Of a stretch of DNA of 36,101 bases, positions 1,310 to 33,757 are shown piece after piece. The translations under genes were made by a program, and so were the position numbers. Under the pieces are notes generated by a model. It worked only from the letters and a program-made list of their open reading frames with translations, was not told the origin of the DNA and ran no database searches. The stretch is from Bacteroidaceae bacterium (lineage in GTDB: Bacteria > Bacteroidota > Bacteroidia > Bacteroidales > Bacteroidaceae): assembly GCA_017558175.1 (NCBI GenBank), contig JAFYWH010000040.1:1-36101 (forward strand), written 5' to 3'. Each line of letters begins with the position of its first letter. The stretch's first letter is position 1.

Positions 1310-3193
1310 TTACAGCAAATAGCCATGCGCTTTCAACTTGTCGATAAAGGCTTTTTGTTGTTTCTTCTCGACCAGAATTTTGTATCCTTCGGCACGAATG
1401 AGGATGGATTTCAGAAGAGGGTCGGTAGAAAGCAGTTGAATCAGTTCCTTGTTATTGCCGTCTAACTGATAGATGACGTATTTGTCGACACCGATAGGCT
1501 TTAACGGATGGCATTGACGAAGCAATGATTCGAAAAAGGCTGTCCATACTTCCGGAATGTCTTTGCTGATAAAACGTTTGAAGAAGTCTATCTTATCTTT
1601 TACGTCCTTTTCATTTCGGCAATTCTTCAAAAAACTTTCGTTGCTCATCATATATCGGCGGTTGCCGATAGGGATGGCTGTATCCGTCAGCAAGGATTCG
1701 TAAGGGTTGTTTTCCTTTAGCGAGCGAATGACCAGACGCTGTTCATCCAAATGGAATAGTTCTTCCGTATCAGTGTTCTGAGGTGGGGTATAGCTTGGGG
1801 TTATATGGAGAACATATTTCCCCAATTCGGTCAGACGGACATATTGCAAAGTGTCAAAGTCCGAAGCATCGTCCATGTTCCTTTGGCGGTATGCCACTTT
1901 CACCAATCCTAATCCTGCCATGGTATAAAGTAATCCTTTCAAGCAAGGAATGCCCAAATGCTTGATGATGTTGGATAAGCAAACAAATTCGCCGGTTTCA
2001 TTATTCACCAAGTTAAGTTTGTCCATATAGTAAGGCTCGAATATTTGTAACGGGTTGATTCCTTTTGGAAATATCAAAAGTTGGTCAATTATGCCCTGAA
2101 CAGATATCCAACCGTGCATGGAGGGGATGAGAGCAGTGAAAGCCGATAAAATAAGTGACTGAATGGTTGAATCGGCAACGACAGAAGATTTAATCCCAAC
2201 GATATGAGGAAACAAGAAAGATGTGCATGAAACATAGCGAAAACTCAATACGGTATGTAGATTCTTCAACAAATCTTCTGCCGGTTGTTTCTTGTATTTC
2301 TTGTTATGTTCGAACAGTAATGCCATGGTTGGAAGCATTGTCGAGGCACGCAATTGTGAAAGAGGATTGGTTTTGTCTGCCTCGAAAAACTCTTTCATGC
2401 AAAGCTGGCCGGATACTTTCTTGAGGGTGGTTGCAAGCATCTTGGTCTTTCCCATGCACAGAATGCCTTGTTCGTACAGGGCTTGCAGGATAGGGTAGTA
2501 TTGTAGGAATGTCAACTCTCCATTAAAAACGGTGAGATTCTTTTCCGGTAATTCTTGATAATGGGGAATGATGTATTCTGTTGTTTCTGGGAAGAACAAT
2601 GGAGCGAACACATCTCTAAGAAACGACGGTAGATAATAATAAATAGTCGTTTCCCTGTATCCATATCGGTTTAATTTGTCTGAATGTGTCCGAGAGGTTC
2701 TGAACCAGCTTGTTTCGGGAAGCTTCTCCATATAATAATAGTATCTGTAATCGGATGGAGTAATCCATTTTTGCTCTCCGGTCCATTCGGCAAGCTGTTC
2801 TTGGCTGCAATACAGGTTTTTGATAATTTGCTTCCATGCAAAAACATCCTTGTCCGACAAAGAACGGATATAGTGTTCCATGTTCCGTCTGTCGGCGCAA
2901 AAGAATGCCAACAAGATGACCAAATCGTTTTTGTACATGGTTCCCTTCTTTGTCGCGATATGTTCAATATCGGATTTTTTCTGACGGTTGTCTTTATCGG
3001 AAACGACCTCTATCTTCTTATGCTTCAGCAAAGGGATTAAATTGTCTGCCAATGACTTTAATTCGGGTACGGTGAAACGCTCGAAGAGCTTCTTGAAGTG
3101 ATTGAAAGTATTCTCTTCCGGTTCATACAGACGGATGGCTCCCAACTGTATTGTTCCCATTTCCTTATCTTCAAATAATGTCTTTTTCTTCAT
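1310..3193 (-). CDS. Companion protein of SNF2 helicase, 627 aa, function unknown
   Basis: This 627-residue soluble protein begins MKKKTLFEDKEMG, only 7 bases after the SNF2 stop, so the two are surely co-transcribed. No catalytic motif is visible. Residues about 400-470 look like a winged-helix region (KYVLHI and flanking strands). The last 65 residues, with spaced leucines followed by YKILVEKKQQKAFIDKLKAHGY, resemble the pattern of the Helicase_C_3 (XPB/Ssl2-like) C-terminal domain, here without a helicase core. The inference is a DNA-binding or regulatory partner of the adjacent SNF2 ATPase. I know similar paired genes in other Bacteroidales only as hypothetical proteins. Confidence 0.75.
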   Translation of the reverse strand: MKKKTLFEDKEMGTIQLGAIRLYEPEENTFNHFKKLFERFTVPELKSLADNLIPLLKHKKIEVVSDKDNRQKKSDIEHIATKKGTMYKNDLVILLAFFCADRRNMEHYIRSLSDKDVFAWKQIIKNLYCSQEQLAEWTGEQKWITPSDYRYYYYMEKLPETSWFRTSRTHSDKLNRYGYRETTIYYYLPSFLRDVFAPLFFPETTEYIIPHYQELPEKNLTVFNGELTFLQYYPILQALYEQGILCMGKTKMLATTLKKVSGQLCMKEFFEADKTNPLSQLRASTMLPTMALLFEHNKKYKKQPAEDLLKNLHTVLSFRYVSCTSFLFPHIVGIKSSVVADSTIQSLILSAFTALIPSMHGWISVQGIIDQLLIFPKGINPLQIFEPYYMDKLNLVNNETGEFVCLSNIIKHLGIPCLKGLLYTMAGLGLVKVAYRQRNMDDASDFDTLQYVRLTELGKYVLHITPSYTPPQNTDTEELFHLDEQRLVIRSLKENNPYESLLTDTAIPIGNRRYMMSNESFLKNCRNEKDVKDKIDFFKRFISKDIPEVWTAFFESLLRQCHPLKPIGVDKYVIYQLDGNNKELIQLLSTDPLLKSILIRAEGYKILVEKKQQKAFIDKLKAHGYLL

Positions 3194-3200
3194 GGTTGTC

Positions 3201-5996
3201 TTAGCTTAAAATGAATTGGATGTCTTCTTCCGTCAACAGCTTGGTGGAAGAAGCATCGTTCCCAATCAATCCGGCAAAAAGTTCTGCCTTCTGTTGTTGC
3301 AACAGGCAAATCTTTTCTTCGATACTGTTTTGGGTAATTAATGAATAGCACAGCACTTTTGCTTTCTGACCGAACCGATGCAATCGGTTGATAGCTTGTT
3401 CTTCGGCTGCCTTGTTCCACCAGGGTTCGAAGATGAAGACTGTGTCGGCTGCTGTGAGATTCAATCCTACGCCACCGGTCTTGAGGGTCATCAGCAAGAC
3501 TTTACAATGGGGATTGTTCTGAAAGCGTTCCACGACTCCTTTGCGGTCATTCGTAGAACCGGTCATGCAAGCAAAGTCTATTCCGGCTTCATTCAGCTTT
3601 TCACTTACTAATTCGATACCGGCTATATAATTGAAGAATATCACAACCTTGTGCCCGTTCCATACGGCATCGGTTATCATTTCTACCAATGTGCTAATCT
3701 TGGGTGAAGCTATTTGGCCGTCGGTCATGCTTTCGGGTACAGAAGCAATACGGCGTAATTCATTCAACGCTTGAAACATCACGAACTGTGATTTCTGTAT
3801 CCCTTCGGATGCGATGGTGTTTTTTACATACCGTTGGTAGAAATTTCGTCGTTCGTTGTAGAAGTCGGCATGTTCTTTTTCCATTTCTACATAAAGCGTT
3901 TGGTCAATGCGGTCGGGAAGTTCCTTCAGTACATCTTTTTTCAAACGACGGAGCAGGAAAGGGAAAATCTTCCGGCGAAGTCCTTGTAAGACATCCTTGT
4001 CGTTGTCCTTTTGGATGGGATAAGTATATCGGGCATTGAAATCTTCCAACGAACCAAACATGGCGGGATTAAGGAAGCGGAATAGGGAGTACAGCTCAGT
4101 CAGGTTGTTCTCGATAGGAGTACCGCTCAATGCTAACCGGTGCTTGGCTTGCAGAAGGTGGATGGCTTGGGTGGTTTGCGAAGAAACATTCTTGATGTTC
4201 TGCGATTCGTCCAGTATGACATAGTGGAACTTTTGTTTACAGAATGATTCGGCATCATTTCGGACGATGGCGTATGTGGAGAGCACTAACTGATGAGTGA
4301 GTGCCTTTTGCATATCGCGTTGTAGCCCGTAATAAGTATAGACGGTTAATTGGGGCGCAAAGCGTTGCAATTCATTCTGCCAATTGAAGATGAGGCTCTT
4401 GGGCATAACAATCAGTGTCGGTTCTTTGGTCTGGGGATAAATGCGAGCTAACATGGCAATGGTCTGCAAGGTCTTTCCAAGCCCCATGTCATCGGCCAGA
4501 CAACCACCTAAATTGTTCTCATATAGATAGTTTATCCATTTTACACCTTCTTGTTGATAATTTCTCAATTGGGCGTTAACTTGGGTGAATCTCATCCGTT
4601 GTTTGGAGAGTTCATTGAATCCTTCGAATACTTTATGATGGCGTTCGAAGACTTCTCCTTTCATCCGCTCTTCTAGCATGCTTTCTACTTCGGGCAAATC
4701 GAAGAAGGAAATCTTGATGTTTTTGTTCCCTCTTTCTTGCTTGAATATGCGTTCCAGTCTTTTTACATAGCCATTGTCCACAATGGCACGGTTCCCATCC
4801 GATAGAAGGATGTATTTTTGTTTCTTGTATTGTTGGAGGAATTGTTTCAGACTGAAGTTTTCACCTTCTAATGTCAGATTTGCTTCACCTTCCAAAAAGT
4901 CGATGCCTGACCCGATGTTTATATTCAGTTTGGGTACAACCGGTTTTACCTTATAGTCTTTCAGATTTTCAGCACCCAATAATTGAAACTCCTTGACTAA
5001 TGAGGGCAGTGCTTGTAGGAGAAACGGTCCGGCTATTGTTTGTGGAATGATAAAGAAATCGTTGTCCCGATAGATTTCTTTAGCTGCTGCTTTGCTGGGT
5101 GCACATTGCATGATCTGCTTGTGAAGGGAGGCTGTTGCACTCTCGTTTGATTGTTGTGAAATGCGTTTCAGGATAATCTGATGTTCTATGGTAAGTGTAG
5201 CTATATACAGCAGGTCGAAATTCTGAAAGAAATCCAAGTCTGCATTGGGAAGCATTTGTGTGACACGTAAATAGAGTGCCATATCCGTATCTACCTTTTC
5301 AAAAACAATGGTAGGAATGGTCTCCACTTCGTTGGGCGAATAAACCAAAGTGTAGTTTTCGTATATGGGCACAATATTCTCCATGTAAGAATAGAATACG
5401 GATAAAAATTTCTCGAATAAATGCTCCGGGAAAGAAGACTTGAAGAAATCTAACTTATCATAATTCTCTCCAACCGATTGGATAGGATAAATGACATGGT
5501 CTGCCAATACAAAGATGTCCGTCAAGAATTTGAATTCAGGGATTTCCTTGTTCTCCACTTTTAAAGAGAAGGAGGTTGATATTTGACCGTCCTTCTTGTC
5601 GATGAAAAGCTGAGGAATAGCAGTCTCGGCAGAAACGGATATAGGTTCGGATTTGGCAGAAATCAAATTGTTGCATCTCAACAATTGATATAGAAGATAA
5701 GGATATTCTTTCAGATAAATCCGCTTGTCCGTTTCGTCCCAAGAAAAATAATTCTGTTGCTCTTTGCGGATAGTGTCAATGGAGCGGAGTACATGAAATG
5801 TCTCTCCGTTATACAAGCGATAATCAGGGTTTACTTCGGTATTTTTGTCATTGACTATGCTGACATAGGCATGTTTTTGTTCGTCAAAGGAAATTTGAAA
5901 AAACAATTTTTCCCGCGTTCCCATGCTGCCCTTGTGAACATGATTGATGTTGCCTCTTTTTAGAAAAGGTAGAAATTCTTCCATTCTTATATGCAT
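3201..5996 (-). CDS. SNF2-family DNA helicase/ATPase
   Basis: This 931-residue SF2 ATPase of the SNF2/Rad54 class has all helicase motifs: I (DDMGLGKTLQT, about residue 500), II (DESQ, about 600), III (SGTPIENN, about 625), V (KTGGVGLNLTAAD, about 845) and VI (INRLHRFGQ, about 868). The first 450 residues are a family-specific region with no recognised domain. Such proteins translocate on double-stranded DNA and remodel protein-DNA complexes; the bacterial role is mostly unknown. The minus promoter at 6010-6039 would place transcription start only about 7-10 bases before the first ATG, so the second Met (codon at 5984, MEEFLPFL) is a credible alternative start. It forms an operon with the 627-residue partner. 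Confidence 0.92.
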   Translation of the reverse strand: MHIRMEEFLPFLKRGNINHVHKGSMGTREKLFFQISFDEQKHAYVSIVNDKNTEVNPDYRLYNGETFHVLRSIDTIRKEQQNYFSWDETDKRIYLKEYPYLLYQLLRCNNLISAKSEPISVSAETAIPQLFIDKKDGQISTSFSLKVENKEIPEFKFLTDIFVLADHVIYPIQSVGENYDKLDFFKSSFPEHLFEKFLSVFYSYMENIVPIYENYTLVYSPNEVETIPTIVFEKVDTDMALYLRVTQMLPNADLDFFQNFDLLYIATLTIEHQIILKRISQQSNESATASLHKQIMQCAPSKAAAKEIYRDNDFFIIPQTIAGPFLLQALPSLVKEFQLLGAENLKDYKVKPVVPKLNINIGSGIDFLEGEANLTLEGENFSLKQFLQQYKKQKYILLSDGNRAIVDNGYVKRLERIFKQERGNKNIKISFFDLPEVESMLEERMKGEVFERHHKVFEGFNELSKQRMRFTQVNAQLRNYQQEGVKWINYLYENNLGGCLADDMGLGKTLQTIAMLARIYPQTKEPTLIVMPKSLIFNWQNELQRFAPQLTVYTYYGLQRDMQKALTHQLVLSTYAIVRNDAESFCKQKFHYVILDESQNIKNVSSQTTQAIHLLQAKHRLALSGTPIENNLTELYSLFRFLNPAMFGSLEDFNARYTYPIQKDNDKDVLQGLRRKIFPFLLRRLKKDVLKELPDRIDQTLYVEMEKEHADFYNERRNFYQRYVKNTIASEGIQKSQFVMFQALNELRRIASVPESMTDGQIASPKISTLVEMITDAVWNGHKVVIFFNYIAGIELVSEKLNEAGIDFACMTGSTNDRKGVVERFQNNPHCKVLLMTLKTGGVGLNLTAADTVFIFEPWWNKAAEEQAINRLHRFGQKAKVLCYSLITQNSIEEKICLLQQQKAELFAGLIGNDASSTKLLTEEDIQFILS

Positions 5997-20994: not shown

Positions 20995-21099
20995 TCCCCC
21001 TTATGAAGGGGGTAGGGGGATGTGTCATTCAGATGGTTTGTATGAGCATATGGCTTCATATCCAATGGGACATCCCCCTTGCCCCCTTCACAAGGGGGA
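20995..21099. repeat. GC-rich palindromic repeat (REP-like), copy 1
   Basis: Two arms of about 29-30 bases (20995-21023 and 21070-21099) are inverted near-copies with the pattern TCCCCCTT-n2/3-AAGGGGG-n-AGGGGGATGT. Each arm also folds on itself (CCCCCTT/AAGGGGG). The 46-base centre is unlike that of copy 2 at 33665-33757. It may act as a terminator after the acyltransferase gene. Confidence 0.85.
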
Positions 21100-21108
21100 T
21101 TCTTTTGC

Positions 21109-21138
21109 TTGCATTTCCAAATAATTTGCCTATATTTG
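21109..21138 (+). promoter_or_regulatory. Promoter of the ATPase/DUF4435 pair
   Basis: TTG (21109-21111), 19 bp, TATATTTG (21131-21138), then ATG at 21167. It lies directly after the REP-like repeat, so the two genes form their own transcription unit. Confidence 0.7.
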
Positions 21139-21166
21139 TAGCACTAAGCAAGAAAATCGTATCACT

Positions 21167-21979
21167 ATGAAGAAGCAGGCTGATTATATCAAACGTATCG
21201 AGATAAAGGGTCTCTGGGGGCGCAAGAACATTTCGTGGGAGCTGAAACCGGATGTGAACATCCTCAGCGGTGTGAACGGGGGAGGCAAGAGCACGATTCT
21301 GAACAAGTCGGTTAACACCCTCGATATGCTCGAAGGCGGTTCGCTGGACAATGACAACGGGCTGAATGTGCGGTTCGAGTTCTCGCCGGCCGATGCAACC
21401 TTTATCCATTACGATGTAATCCGTAGTTTCGACCGTCCGTTGCTGCATGGCGACCTCATGGAAAAGATGGCCGATAAGAACGTGAAGTCCGAGCTCGACT
21501 GGCAACTCTATCAGCTTCAGCGCCGATACTTGGACTATCAGGTGAATGTGGGCAACCGCATCATCGAGTGCCTCACTTCCGGCGAGGCAGAAAAGGCGGC
21601 TTCCATTTCGTATCCCAAGACCAAGTTCCAGAACCTGGTGGACGAGCTTTTCGGCGAGACCGGAAAGAAGATTCTCCGCAAGAGCAACGAAATCCTTTTC
21701 GAGCAGGATGGCGATACGCTCTATCCTTATCAGCTTTCGTCGGGCGAAAAGCAGATGCTGGTGATCTTGCTAACCGTTCTTGTGCAGGACAATCGCAAGG
21801 GCGTGCTCTTCATGGACGAACCCGAAGTTTCCCTCCACGTAGAATGGCAACAGCGCCTCATCGGTCTCATTCGCGAACTGAACCCCAATGTACAGATTGT
21901 GCTCACCACCCATTCGCCGGCCATGATTATGGACGGATGGCTGGATGCCGTGACCGAAGTGAGTGACATCACCCAGTAA
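21167..21979 (+). CDS. Compact AAA/ABC-type ATPase (AAA_21-like; PARIS AriA-like candidate)
   Basis: This 270-residue cytoplasmic ATPase has Walker A in LSGVNGGGKSTILNK (about residues 35-49), an ABC-type signature LSSGEKQML (about 190), Walker B FMDEPEVSLH (about 208) and an H-loop THSPAMI near the C-terminus. This is the OLD/RecF-like ATPase layout. The linker between Walker A and signature is only about 150 residues, so it lacks the long coiled coil of SMC proteins and is much shorter than the roughly 400+ residues I associate with AriA. It is co-transcribed with the DUF4435 gene 11 bp downstream. The role, defence or housekeeping, is not proven. Confidence 0.82.
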   Translation: MKKQADYIKRIEIKGLWGRKNISWELKPDVNILSGVNGGGKSTILNKSVNTLDMLEGGSLDNDNGLNVRFEFSPADATFIHYDVIRSFDRPLLHGDLMEKMADKNVKSELDWQLYQLQRRYLDYQVNVGNRIIECLTSGEAEKAASISYPKTKFQNLVDELFGETGKKILRKSNEILFEQDGDTLYPYQLSSGEKQMLVILLTVLVQDNRKGVLFMDEPEVSLHVEWQQRLIGLIRELNPNVQIVLTTHSPAMIMDGWLDAVTEVSDITQ

Positions 21980-21985
21980 AGGAGG
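21979..21985 (+). promoter_or_regulatory. Shine-Dalgarno site fixing the DUF4435 start
   Basis: AAGGAGG lies 5 bases before the ATG at 21991 and overlaps the last base of the ATPase stop codon. It favours ATG 21991 over the in-frame GTG at 21985. Confidence 0.65.
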
Positions 21986-21990
21986 TGGCT

Positions 21991-22989
21991 ATGGGAAAGC
22001 GTTTGCAAGACAATTTGTCTTCCTTATATATAGGTGCAGCCAATCGGTTGAAACCGAAAAAGGCAAAGCGCAGGATTGTGGCCTATGTAGAGAGCTACGA
22101 CGATGTGTCGTTCTGGCGTTCGGTTTTCGCCGATTTCGAGGACGACAACTTCTATTTCGAGGTCATGCTCCCTTCCCAAAACTCGCTTTGCAAGGGGAAG
22201 AAATCTGTGCTCATGAATCAGCTGGGATCCCGATTGGGCGACAACATGGTGGCTTGTGTGGACAGCGATTACGATTATCTTTTGCAGGGCGTGACATCCA
22301 CTTCCCGCCAGATAAACAACAGCCGATACGTGTTCCAGACCTATGCCTATGCCATCGAGAATTACCAATGCTATGCCGACAGTCTGCACGAGGCTTGCGT
22401 AATGGCCACCCTCAACGACCATCCGCTCATCGATTTCGTAGGCTTCATGACCATGTATTCGCAGATAGCCTATCCGCTTTTCGTGTGGTCGGTGTGGTTT
22501 TATCGCAAGCGCAATCTCAGTGAGTTTTCGTTGATGGACTATTGTTCGTATGTCCGTCTGGATCATGTCAGCGTTCAGCAGCCGGAGCAATGCCTGTTGG
22601 CGATGGACAAGCGCGTGAAGAACAAGCTACGCGAGTTGGAGAAACATCATCCGGAGGCGTTGGAAGAAATAGAATCGATGAAGGCCGAATTCACCTATCT
22701 GGGCGTAACGCCGGAGAACACGTACATGTTCATTCAGGGCCATCACATCATGGAGAGTGTGGTGATGAAAGTCCTCACCCCGGTTTGCAATGCGCTTCGT
22801 AGGGAGCGTGAAGAAGAAATCAAGCGATTGGCAGAGCATCACACCCAGTTCCGCAACGAGCTCACCAGCTACGAACGTCGTTTGCTGGGCATCGATGTGG
22901 TTCTCCGCAAGCACACCGGCTTCAAGGATTCGCCGGTGTACAAGAAGTTGGAGAATGATATTCGGGAGTTTTTGAAGCGGATAAAATAG
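21991..22989 (+). CDS. DUF4435 (TOPRIM-like) protein, PARIS AriB-like candidate
   Basis: From ATG 21991 this is a 332-residue protein. The N-terminal half matches DUF4435: AYVESYDDVSFWRSVF places a conserved Glu at residue 34, and CVDSDYDYL gives Asp91 and Asp93, the E...DxD layout of TOPRIM metal sites. DUF4435 is the family of AriB, the effector of the PARIS anti-phage system, which is a TOPRIM nuclease paired with an AAA ATPase. Gene order ATPase then DUF4435, tight spacing and one promoter agree with that. The C-terminal 150 residues are helical and unassigned. Whether this pair is a true defence system or a conserved Bacteroidales pair cannot be decided here. Confidence 0.8.
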   Translation: MGKRLQDNLSSLYIGAANRLKPKKAKRRIVAYVESYDDVSFWRSVFADFEDDNFYFEVMLPSQNSLCKGKKSVLMNQLGSRLGDNMVACVDSDYDYLLQGVTSTSRQINNSRYVFQTYAYAIENYQCYADSLHEACVMATLNDHPLIDFVGFMTMYSQIAYPLFVWSVWFYRKRNLSEFSLMDYCSYVRLDHVSVQQPEQCLLAMDKRVKNKLRELEKHHPEALEEIESMKAEFTYLGVTPENTYMFIQGHHIMESVVMKVLTPVCNALRREREEEIKRLAEHHTQFRNELTSYERRLLGIDVVLRKHTGFKDSPVYKKLENDIREFLKRIK

Positions 22990-29346: not shown

Positions 29347-30501
29347 CTAACAGCAATTCTTCAAATCCTTTACGATAGTGCTTTCCATTACTTCGCTATA
29401 AATCTGGGTGGTGGCGATGTTTCGGTGCCCCAATAATTTCTGTACGGTAGTTATTTGTGCTCCTCTATATATTAGTAAGGTTGCATTGGTGTGTCTGGCC
29501 GAATGGAAAGAGAAGTGTTTGTGGATGTTTGCGAGTTTTCCTAACTTAATCAGTTCTTTATTGGCCGTAGAGTTGGGCTTGATGGCAAAGAATTCGTTCC
29601 ATTTGTTATGGTATTTTTTTAACAATAGCCATGCTTTCCCCTCGAAGAGCAGATGAAGAGGTAATTTTACTTCCGTTCCGGTCTTGATAGTACGGAAAAT
29701 AATCCAAGGATTTTCATTTATCAGTGTGATATTTGTTTCAGAAAGATGGGTGAAGTCCGAATATCTCAATCCCGTATAGCAACAGAACAGAAAAGCATCG
29801 AGTGTATGTGATAGGGCTACTTTCTTTCCTTTCAATTTCAAATCTTCCAATCTTTGCATTTCTTCCGGTAACAGGAAGCTATGTTTTCCTGTTTGTTTTT
29901 TTATCCGGTATCGTTGGAAAGGATTCTTGTTGGCGTCTATCTGTCCCTTATTGATGGCTGTGTTTACAAAAGCTTTCAAATGTTTCATGTGTTTGGCTAC
30001 AGTATTCGTTTGCATTCCTTGTTCGTATAAGAATCTCTCGAAATCATAAATCAGTTGCGGAGTAATATCATTGAATTTCAAATCGCTTCGGAAACGTTTT
30101 AAAAGTTGTAGTGTGGTATTCTTGTTTTTTCTCGTGCTTTCTTTGTTGGGAGAATGGCAGATTTCATCTTCCACAAAGGGAATAAATGAATTGGTTTTGA
30201 TAGAAGGGGGATTGTCTTTCAATATTTGGAGTGTAACTTCTCCTCCACTTTTCCATACGTTGAGTTCCTTTTGTTCCAAATGGATGATGAATTCCAGCAA
30301 CATATAGTTTAACTCTCTTGCATGGGGATGTCTCTTGATGGCTTTTCTCTTGTTGTCCCATTGTTCCGGCTTTAGATAAATGTGTGTAGAAAAATAGATT
30401 TTCTTCTTTTCTAGACTGGCTTCTACATGCAAAAGCGCTTTACCTTGTGCATTCAATTGCTTGTTTTTATTGAAAACCAGACGATAATTAATCTTTTTCA
30501 T
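29347..30501 (-). CDS. Tyrosine recombinase/site-specific integrase
   Basis: This 384-residue protein has an N-terminal arm-binding-like domain (KINYRLVFNKNKQLNAQG; HIYLKPEQWD), a SAM-like core-binding domain (about 115-210) and a catalytic domain with TGLRYSDF (Arg), a Lys in IKTGTEVKLPL, HSARHTNATLL (His-x-x-Arg), LLGHRNIATTQIY (His and nucleophile Tyr). All catalytic residues appear intact. The type matches Bacteroidetes mobile-element integrases and promoter invertases. No attachment-site repeats, cargo or invertible promoter are evident beside it, and it sits between core genes. Its AT-rich codon use stands out from hflX and fumarase. A -7-like box is at 30546-30553 (minus). Confidence 0.92.
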   Translation of the reverse strand: MKKINYRLVFNKNKQLNAQGKALLHVEASLEKKKIYFSTHIYLKPEQWDNKRKAIKRHPHARELNYMLLEFIIHLEQKELNVWKSGGEVTLQILKDNPPSIKTNSFIPFVEDEICHSPNKESTRKNKNTTLQLLKRFRSDLKFNDITPQLIYDFERFLYEQGMQTNTVAKHMKHLKAFVNTAINKGQIDANKNPFQRYRIKKQTGKHSFLLPEEMQRLEDLKLKGKKVALSHTLDAFLFCCYTGLRYSDFTHLSETNITLINENPWIIFRTIKTGTEVKLPLHLLFEGKAWLLLKKYHNKWNEFFAIKPNSTANKELIKLGKLANIHKHFSFHSARHTNATLLIYRGAQITTVQKLLGHRNIATTQIYSEVMESTIVKDLKNCC

Positions 30502-33664: not shown

Positions 33665-33757
33665 TCCCCCTTGTGAAGGGGGCTAGGGGGATGTTTCATA
33701 ATTGGAACTCGTATCCATGCGGTTGGAACATCCCCCTGCCCCCCTTCGCAAGGGGGA
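33665..33757. repeat. GC-rich palindromic repeat (REP-like), copy 2
   Basis: Arms 33665-33694 and 33728-33757 have the same design and nearly the same sequence as copy 1 at 20995-21099, with an unrelated 33-base centre. It lies between fumarase and the GH89 gene, in the only 124 bases separating them, and probably terminates the fumarase transcript. Read through in frame it gives a false N-terminal extension of the GH89 protein. Confidence 0.85.

Follow-up and report, generated by a model that had tools for sequence, protein, structure and literature searches.

Escherichia coli AriA, the ATPase of the PARIS anti-phage system, sequesters the nuclease AriB and frees it upon a phage trigger, and the freed AriB cuts tRNA-Lys between C40 and A41 (PMC11455837 and the accessible part of PMC12409363). 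According to the accessible part of PMC9122126, PARIS occurs in 5.2% of genomes. Here, we analyzed a 36,101-nt stretch of Bacteroidaceae DNA from the genus Phocaeicola (contig JAFYWH010000040.1; hereafter, the window), in which a compact ATPase gene is followed by a DUF4435 gene. This pair is homologous to PARIS and is, by descent, a core-genome variant of it. Its family-wide distribution is the surprise: one expects defence systems to be gained and lost, and a PARIS-type pair is found here in approximately 97% of the genomes sampled from a dominant gut family.

The pair is homologous to AriA and AriB

The two genes are separate and both lie on the + strand, the ATPase gene at 21167–21979 and the DUF4435 gene at 21985/21991–22989. 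The likely start of the latter is the ATG at 21991, 5 nt behind AGGAGG, and the starts of orthologues agree. The features of the pair are given below, together with the evidence for each.

21167–21979, + strand: compact AriA-like ABC ATPase, 270 aa (profiles, predicted fold)
21269–21295, + strand: Walker A, residues 35–43 (GVNGGGKST); G35, N37, G38, G40, K41 and T43 invariant in 56 sequences
21737–21754, + strand: ABC signature, residues 191–196 (SSGEKQ); S191, G193, E194, K195 and Q196 invariant, S192 nearly so
21809–21826, + strand: Walker B, residues 215–220 (FMDEPE); D217–E220 invariant in 56 sequences
21991–22989, + strand: DUF4435/AriB-like TOPRIM protein, 332 aa from the ATG, 334 aa from the GTG at 21985 (profiles, predicted fold, orthologues)
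21991–22062, + strand: N-terminal element, residues 3–26, probable ATPase dock (profile-match starts in proteins of the family f107)
22090–22092, + strand: catalytic-type E36, numbered E34 in the first-pass annotation (invariant in all three groups of rows)
22192–22203, + strand: KGKK, residues 70–73, basic stretch in the TOPRIM insert (row conservation)
22261–22275, + strand: D93-x-D95-x-D97 metal-site motif, its first two residues previously numbered D91 and D93 (row conservation)

The PADLOC AriA profile PDLC04164 matched the ATPase over nearly its full length (residues 5–269, 9.9e-60), and the AriB profiles PDLC02983 and PDLC04165 matched the DUF4435 protein (4.6e-68 and 5.2e-37, respectively). 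In structural comparison, AriB likewise came first for the DUF4435 model. For the ATPase model, AriA was the top solved fold by VIA-align, and Foldseek ranked the retron protein PtuA slightly above AriA. The matches of this model included the E393Q structure entry 8v49, and, by a hand count of residues on the alignment, E218 of Walker B falls opposite E393 in E. coli AriA. Chance open reading frames were rejected on the basis of the profile matches, the predicted folds and the ratios of nonsynonymous to synonymous substitution rates (dN/dS) of 33 sequence pairs.

We compared 71 alignment rows of the DUF4435 protein: 30 from the core loci of the window's family, 23 from f107, a family that is probably Muribaculaceae, and 18 from accessory relatives. 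E36, D93 and D95 were present in 71/71 rows. D97 was found in all 53 core and f107 rows and was replaced by R in 14 of the 18 accessory rows. Similarly, G71 and K72 were retained in 30/30 core and 23/23 f107 rows, in which residue 70 was always K or R, and K72 occurred in only 3/18 accessory rows; K73 was nearly invariant (69 sequences). With one protein and two profiles as queries, no sequence match was obtained between the DUF4435 protein and the solved AriB, so that K60 and K64 of the E. coli protein could not be placed on it. A spacing argument suggests that KGKK may be their equivalent.

These results agree with the first-pass annotation, made from the letters of the window, which had described a 270-aa ATPase and a DUF4435/TOPRIM protein with an E...DxD layout and had likened them to AriA and AriB; a structural match to both and the TOPRIM fold, whose absence it had named as grounds for rejection, were found. 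Its suggestion that the pair might be minimal or divergent because the ATPase is short did not survive, as the PADLOC AriA model is itself 253 aa long and the ATPase frames of patchily distributed pairs from the same genus (L199–L208) span 243–331 aa. A compact AriA is already known and is not new. The long insertion of the E. coli type is absent from the window ATPase, and the PADLOC short class does not need it.

The pair is nearly universal in the family

Among 298 genomes of the window's family with a completeness of 90% or more, 290 contained a match to the DUF4435 gene, representing 22/22 genera. The 290 include G104, the only g46 genome listed, which has a distant pair only, and G108 and G306, in which the DUF4435 match was weaker and in two pieces, yet an ATPase of 64–67% was kept. 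More than one match was found in at most 28 genomes, pieces included, and there were no internal stops among the matches listed. Seven of the eight genomes without a match also lacked an ATPase orthologue; in the eighth, G247, a contig end approximately 235 nt past the ATPase gene explains the missing DUF4435 gene. Three gene-less genomes (G182, G190 and G205) are closely related, with 95.6–97.4% identity over approximately 14.6 kb of stretches compared. The stretches from two others (G252 and G288) aligned neither with these nor with each other and are therefore uninformative.

In a set of 100 relatives, 60 matched: 57 of the 60 same-genus genomes (the window's own included) and 3 of the 40 from other families, the latter at 25–32% identity. 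Of the three same-genus genomes without a match, two (G013 and G031) were only 83–84% complete, and both also lacked an ATPase orthologue. Across the order, the DUF4435 gene was found in 61 of 295 genomes, five of the 61 belonging to the window's own family; among 14 named controls, Bacteroides ihuae and Synechococcus elongatus matched. The pair is therefore near-universal at the level of the family and not across all Bacteroidales. The first-pass annotation had held that universal presence in all Bacteroidales would point to housekeeping, and this presence was observed within the family and not order-wide. Of the two readings that it had offered, anti-phage defence and a conserved non-defence pair, the former agrees with the homology and is weakened by presence in 290/298 genomes. 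In the open-licence PMC literature, judged from titles and the beginnings of abstracts, we recognized no description of the pair as core in Bacteroidaceae.

The pair forms a conserved two-gene unit

We assembled 143 loci, namely the window and L001–L142, some genomes being represented twice, with 118 distinct ATPases. Both genes were located in 138 loci, with the ATPase first and on the same strand every time. In four of the others (L084, L106, L125 and L131), the DUF4435 gene is present and its start was unassigned, and the contig of L094 begins just before the DUF4435 gene. The intergenic gap was –23 to +136 nt in 134 loci, +251 nt in one, and enlarged by inserts of 1.4–1.8 kb in three Bacteroides-type loci (L107, L112 and L117), in which both genes stay open; the insert of L112, judged by eye, carries an NVEALA-like peptide and a lipoprotein-like gene. 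The ATPases of the core loci were 268–290 aa long, with one exception of 241 aa, and the DUF4435 proteins 329–357 aa.

21131–21138, + strand: TATATTTG, –7-type promoter box of the unit (TANNTTTG counts upstream of ATPase genes)

The TATATTTG box, which we take to be of the –7 type, starts 36 nt upstream of the ATPase start. The motif TANNTTTG was found 15–110 nt upstream of the ATPase start in 119/142 loci, compared with a mean of 9.4 in shuffled sequences, and in 97/118 when identical ATPases were collapsed to one. Its occurrence before the DUF4435 gene in only 4/138 loci suggests a single operon, in agreement with the self-contained two-gene unit with its own promoter that had been annotated initially.

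Descent is largely vertical and selection is purifying

We compared the distances of the ATPase (A) and the DUF4435 protein (B) with those of RpoB in 30 genomes. The correlations were 0.77 for B and RpoB, 0.69 for A and RpoB, and 0.77 for A and B, none of which was reached in 5000 permutations; the partial correlation of A and B given RpoB was 0.51. FumA was dropped as a species-tree marker because its two groups suggest paralogues, and RpoB was used instead. Median dN/dS values for the two genes were 0.046 and 0.058, based on the 33 usable members of a set of 96 close pairs; sequences recur among these pairs, and some have a dS above 1. The descent of the pair is largely vertical, and both genes are under strong purifying selection. 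Losses in 7/298 genomes and evolution faster than that of RpoB count against an essential role.

No match was found among 50,697 phage records. A pattern-based scan of a viral collection yielded one relative (contig L142, 31% identity), with an ATPase–DUF4435 pair of 343- and 339-aa frames. Seven of 72,556 plasmid records matched. Two of these were close, one from Phocaeicola massiliensis (75%) and one from Bacteroides finegoldii (52.5%), and both probably represent chromosomal contigs. Phage- or plasmid-borne cargo was accordingly not supported, and the patchy, mobile or phage-borne distribution of an exchangeable defence island, which is not a defining feature of PARIS, was not observed.

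These distributions bear on the possibility that the pair is a genuine PARIS fixed in the family: a permanent guard acting by abortive infection, in which the ATPase would detect a phage protein and set a tRNase free. Gene order, profiles and folds are those of E. coli PARIS, and the catalytic E and DxD are kept; moreover, the accessible part of PMC12135933 gives an expressed PARIS, called by DefenseFinder, in Bacteroides thetaiotaomicron jmh43, which is a candidate for the same locus. However, inheritance is near-universal and largely vertical, the neighbours are mostly metabolic (ten window proteins scanned), and the patchy Phocaeicola DUF4435 pairs fall outside the core branch, the nearest being L199 on a long branch. 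In addition, most genomes of f107, described below, have dropped the sensor and kept the effector. We regard this explanation as rather unlikely.

A related family keeps the DUF4435 protein and mostly lacks the ATPase

In f107 (loci L264–L283 and L216–L218), the DUF4435 gene was found in 59/60 genomes and 16/16 genera. An ATPase search gave matches in 36 of the 60, only 11 of them orthologue-like (one split over two contigs and 10 scoring at least 254 bits) and the others below 50 bits, leaving 48 of the 59 DUF4435-bearing genomes without an ATPase orthologue. Six of the 11 adjoin the DUF4435 gene and five lie elsewhere in the genome; the distance could be measured in three of these, at 50, 152 and 153 kb. 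The neighbours of the f107 DUF4435 genes gave no clue to function, and no alternative partner was found among them.

In addition to a quick tree, we made a careful DUF4435 tree that took in 6 of the 18 accessory rows. The 30 rows of the window's family formed one side of a branch (100/99), and the 23 f107 rows had their own branch (100/99), in which 16 proteins from genomes without the ATPase (solo proteins) formed a single clade (100/98), so that one ATPase loss suffices. The root is unsure because the accessory rows have long branches. The profile match began at positions 1–3 in 7/7 f107 proteins from ATPase-bearing genomes, compared with positions 18–29 in 16/16 solo proteins. Likewise, mean identity to the window over residues 5–22 was 41% (33–50%) in the former and 15% (0–33%) in the latter, whereas over the remaining residues it was 38% in both classes. 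This correlation represents one evolutionary event. The N-terminal segment of the DUF4435 protein is a probable dock for the ATPase.

RNase M5 is not known to require an ATPase. The DUF4435 protein could be a cellular RNase that works mainly without the ATPase and resembles RNase M5 in function, with the ATPase as an optional regulator. The 48 f107 genomes described above favour this possibility, as do the catalytic residues and KGK stretch kept in the 16 solo proteins and the resemblance of the AriB active site to RNase M5 (accessible part of PMC12409363). RNase M5 was not among the 50 structural matches shown for the DUF4435 model, which carries no weight either way. In the window's family, however, both genes co-occur and are about equally constrained; the RNA substrate is only putative, and an ATPase-less protein might use another partner. 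We consider this explanation doubtful, noting that it overlaps with the one that we prefer, so that the probabilities need not sum to one.

Flanking genes and other features of the window

Among 21 loci, flanking families recurred across genera: a gene for what we take to be an EamA-like transporter directly upstream in 12, an SF1 helicase gene (named by Pfam) upstream in seven, and directly downstream in five a gene that we likewise take, from its sequence, to be mechanosensitive-channel-like. The tRNA-Lys gene of the window, which the first-pass annotation had mentioned as a possible link to AriB, proved to be a coincidence, as 0/20 loci had a linked tRNA-Lys gene, and tRNA-Lys was rejected as a linked target. 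The window tRNA-Lys has G40–U41 rather than C40–A41, so that the target, if it is RNA, is probably different from that of E. coli AriB.

Upstream of the pair (20995–21099) lies an inverted repeat that is rich in G/C, has 25-nt arms (88%) and contains a core resembling GGGGGATGTGTCATT. This core occurs in three copies in the window, at 20995–21099 and 33686–33700, compared with 0.09 expected, and the element looks like a dispersed intergenic repeat. A tyrosine recombinase gene with Arm-DNA-bind_5, SAM-like and Phage_integrase domains is located at 29347–30501 (– strand), approximately 6.4 kb downstream of the pair. A 627-aa protein encoded at 1310–3193 (– strand), beside an SNF2-type helicase gene (3201–5996), had no Pfam match at 1e-5.

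A possible standing cellular function

The data directly support homology to PARIS, the predicted folds and catalytic residues, an operon layout, a core distribution, descent that is largely vertical, purifying selection, an N-terminus linked to the ATPase, and a related lineage that lacks the ATPase. With these in hand, we lean, at slightly better than even confidence, towards an AriA–AriB (PARIS-type) complex that has turned into a vertically inherited core module of the family, a gated TOPRIM nuclease with mainly a standing cellular function rather than an exchangeable anti-phage island. The pair probably works like PARIS, as a gated nuclease. The compact ATPase would bind the TOPRIM protein via the N-terminal segment of the latter, and ATP binding and hydrolysis would gate it. 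Once released or activated, the TOPRIM protein would cleave nucleic acid, most likely RNA, in a Mg-dependent manner; it may mainly serve to process RNA or control its quality, or stand as a fixed guard against stress and infection.

Core inheritance, the solo lineage and the constraint on catalytic residues point to a standing use within the cell, and a role of the cell's own appears no less likely than plain anti-phage defence. Several points weigh on the other side. The same three observations are also compatible with fixed immunity. Furthermore, congruence with the species tree is not strict: only 10/27 (B) and 8/27 (A) splits were common with the RpoB tree, and the genera g1 and g47, whole in that tree, were both broken in the B tree, g47 also in the A tree. 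A toxin–antitoxin pair was not favoured, since E. coli ariA or ariB deletions are non-toxic according to the accessible part of PMC9122126; a commentary places PARIS among toxin–antitoxin systems (PMC11455837).

If the preferred reading is true, a defence toxin has become a core enzyme, or the reverse, and f107 has discarded the sensor and kept the nuclease in most genomes. More broadly, we tentatively raise the possibility, in which our confidence is below even, that TOPRIM nucleases of the AriB type serve gut lineages of Bacteroidales as core cellular RNases, whether or not a regulator of the AriA type accompanies them, and that PARIS defence and this core machine descend from one ancestor, one having been made from the other. 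In practice, searches with profile-based tools will probably report PARIS for nearly all genomes of the Bacteroides family, and such a call may not mean anti-phage defence.

Comparison with known systems

Fused relatives of the pair occur elsewhere in the order. Single-gene DUF4435 proteins of 515–536 aa were read in 14 loci (L214, L215, L219–L229 and L233) of the families f3, f22, f26, f29, f58, f83, f84, f99 and f103; three scanned genes comprised an AAA_21 part and DUF4435 and matched PADLOC AriAB (PDLC02982). In f58, the DUF4435 gene was present in 4/4 genomes, and fused compact AriAB-type genes may be core in some families of the order. Fused AriAB shares with the window pair a compact ATPase part and DUF4435; however, it is a single gene and fell below the display cuts (30 and 45 bits) with the profiles of the window pair.

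OLD nucleases likewise combine an ABC ATPase with TOPRIM, but in one fused chain, whereas the window has two separate genes; we consider it very improbable that the two genes serve DNA repair as an OLD/RecF-like pair working on DNA ends. Unlike PtuA of Septu and retrons, the window ATPase has DUF4435 and not an HNH nuclease as its partner. The PADLOC short AriA (PDLC04164) with AriB (PDLC02983, PDLC04165) is of the same size class, with a near full-length profile match. The library entries are silent on core inheritance, and the accessory short pairs of Phocaeicola lie outside the core branch.

PARIS is characterized by an AriA6–AriB3 assembly. PARIS of the E. coli B185 type has in common with the window pair an ABC/AAA ATPase gene followed by a DUF4435 TOPRIM gene, folds that are the nearest among solved structures (by VIA-align in the case of the ATPase), the catalytic E and DxD, and the Walker B glutamate. 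The two differ in size, as the ATPase has 270 aa here and 464 aa in E. coli AriA, with a stretch from Walker A to the signature that is approximately 178 residues shorter (counted on alignments). They also differ in distribution: PARIS is patchy, whereas the window pair is core and largely vertically inherited.
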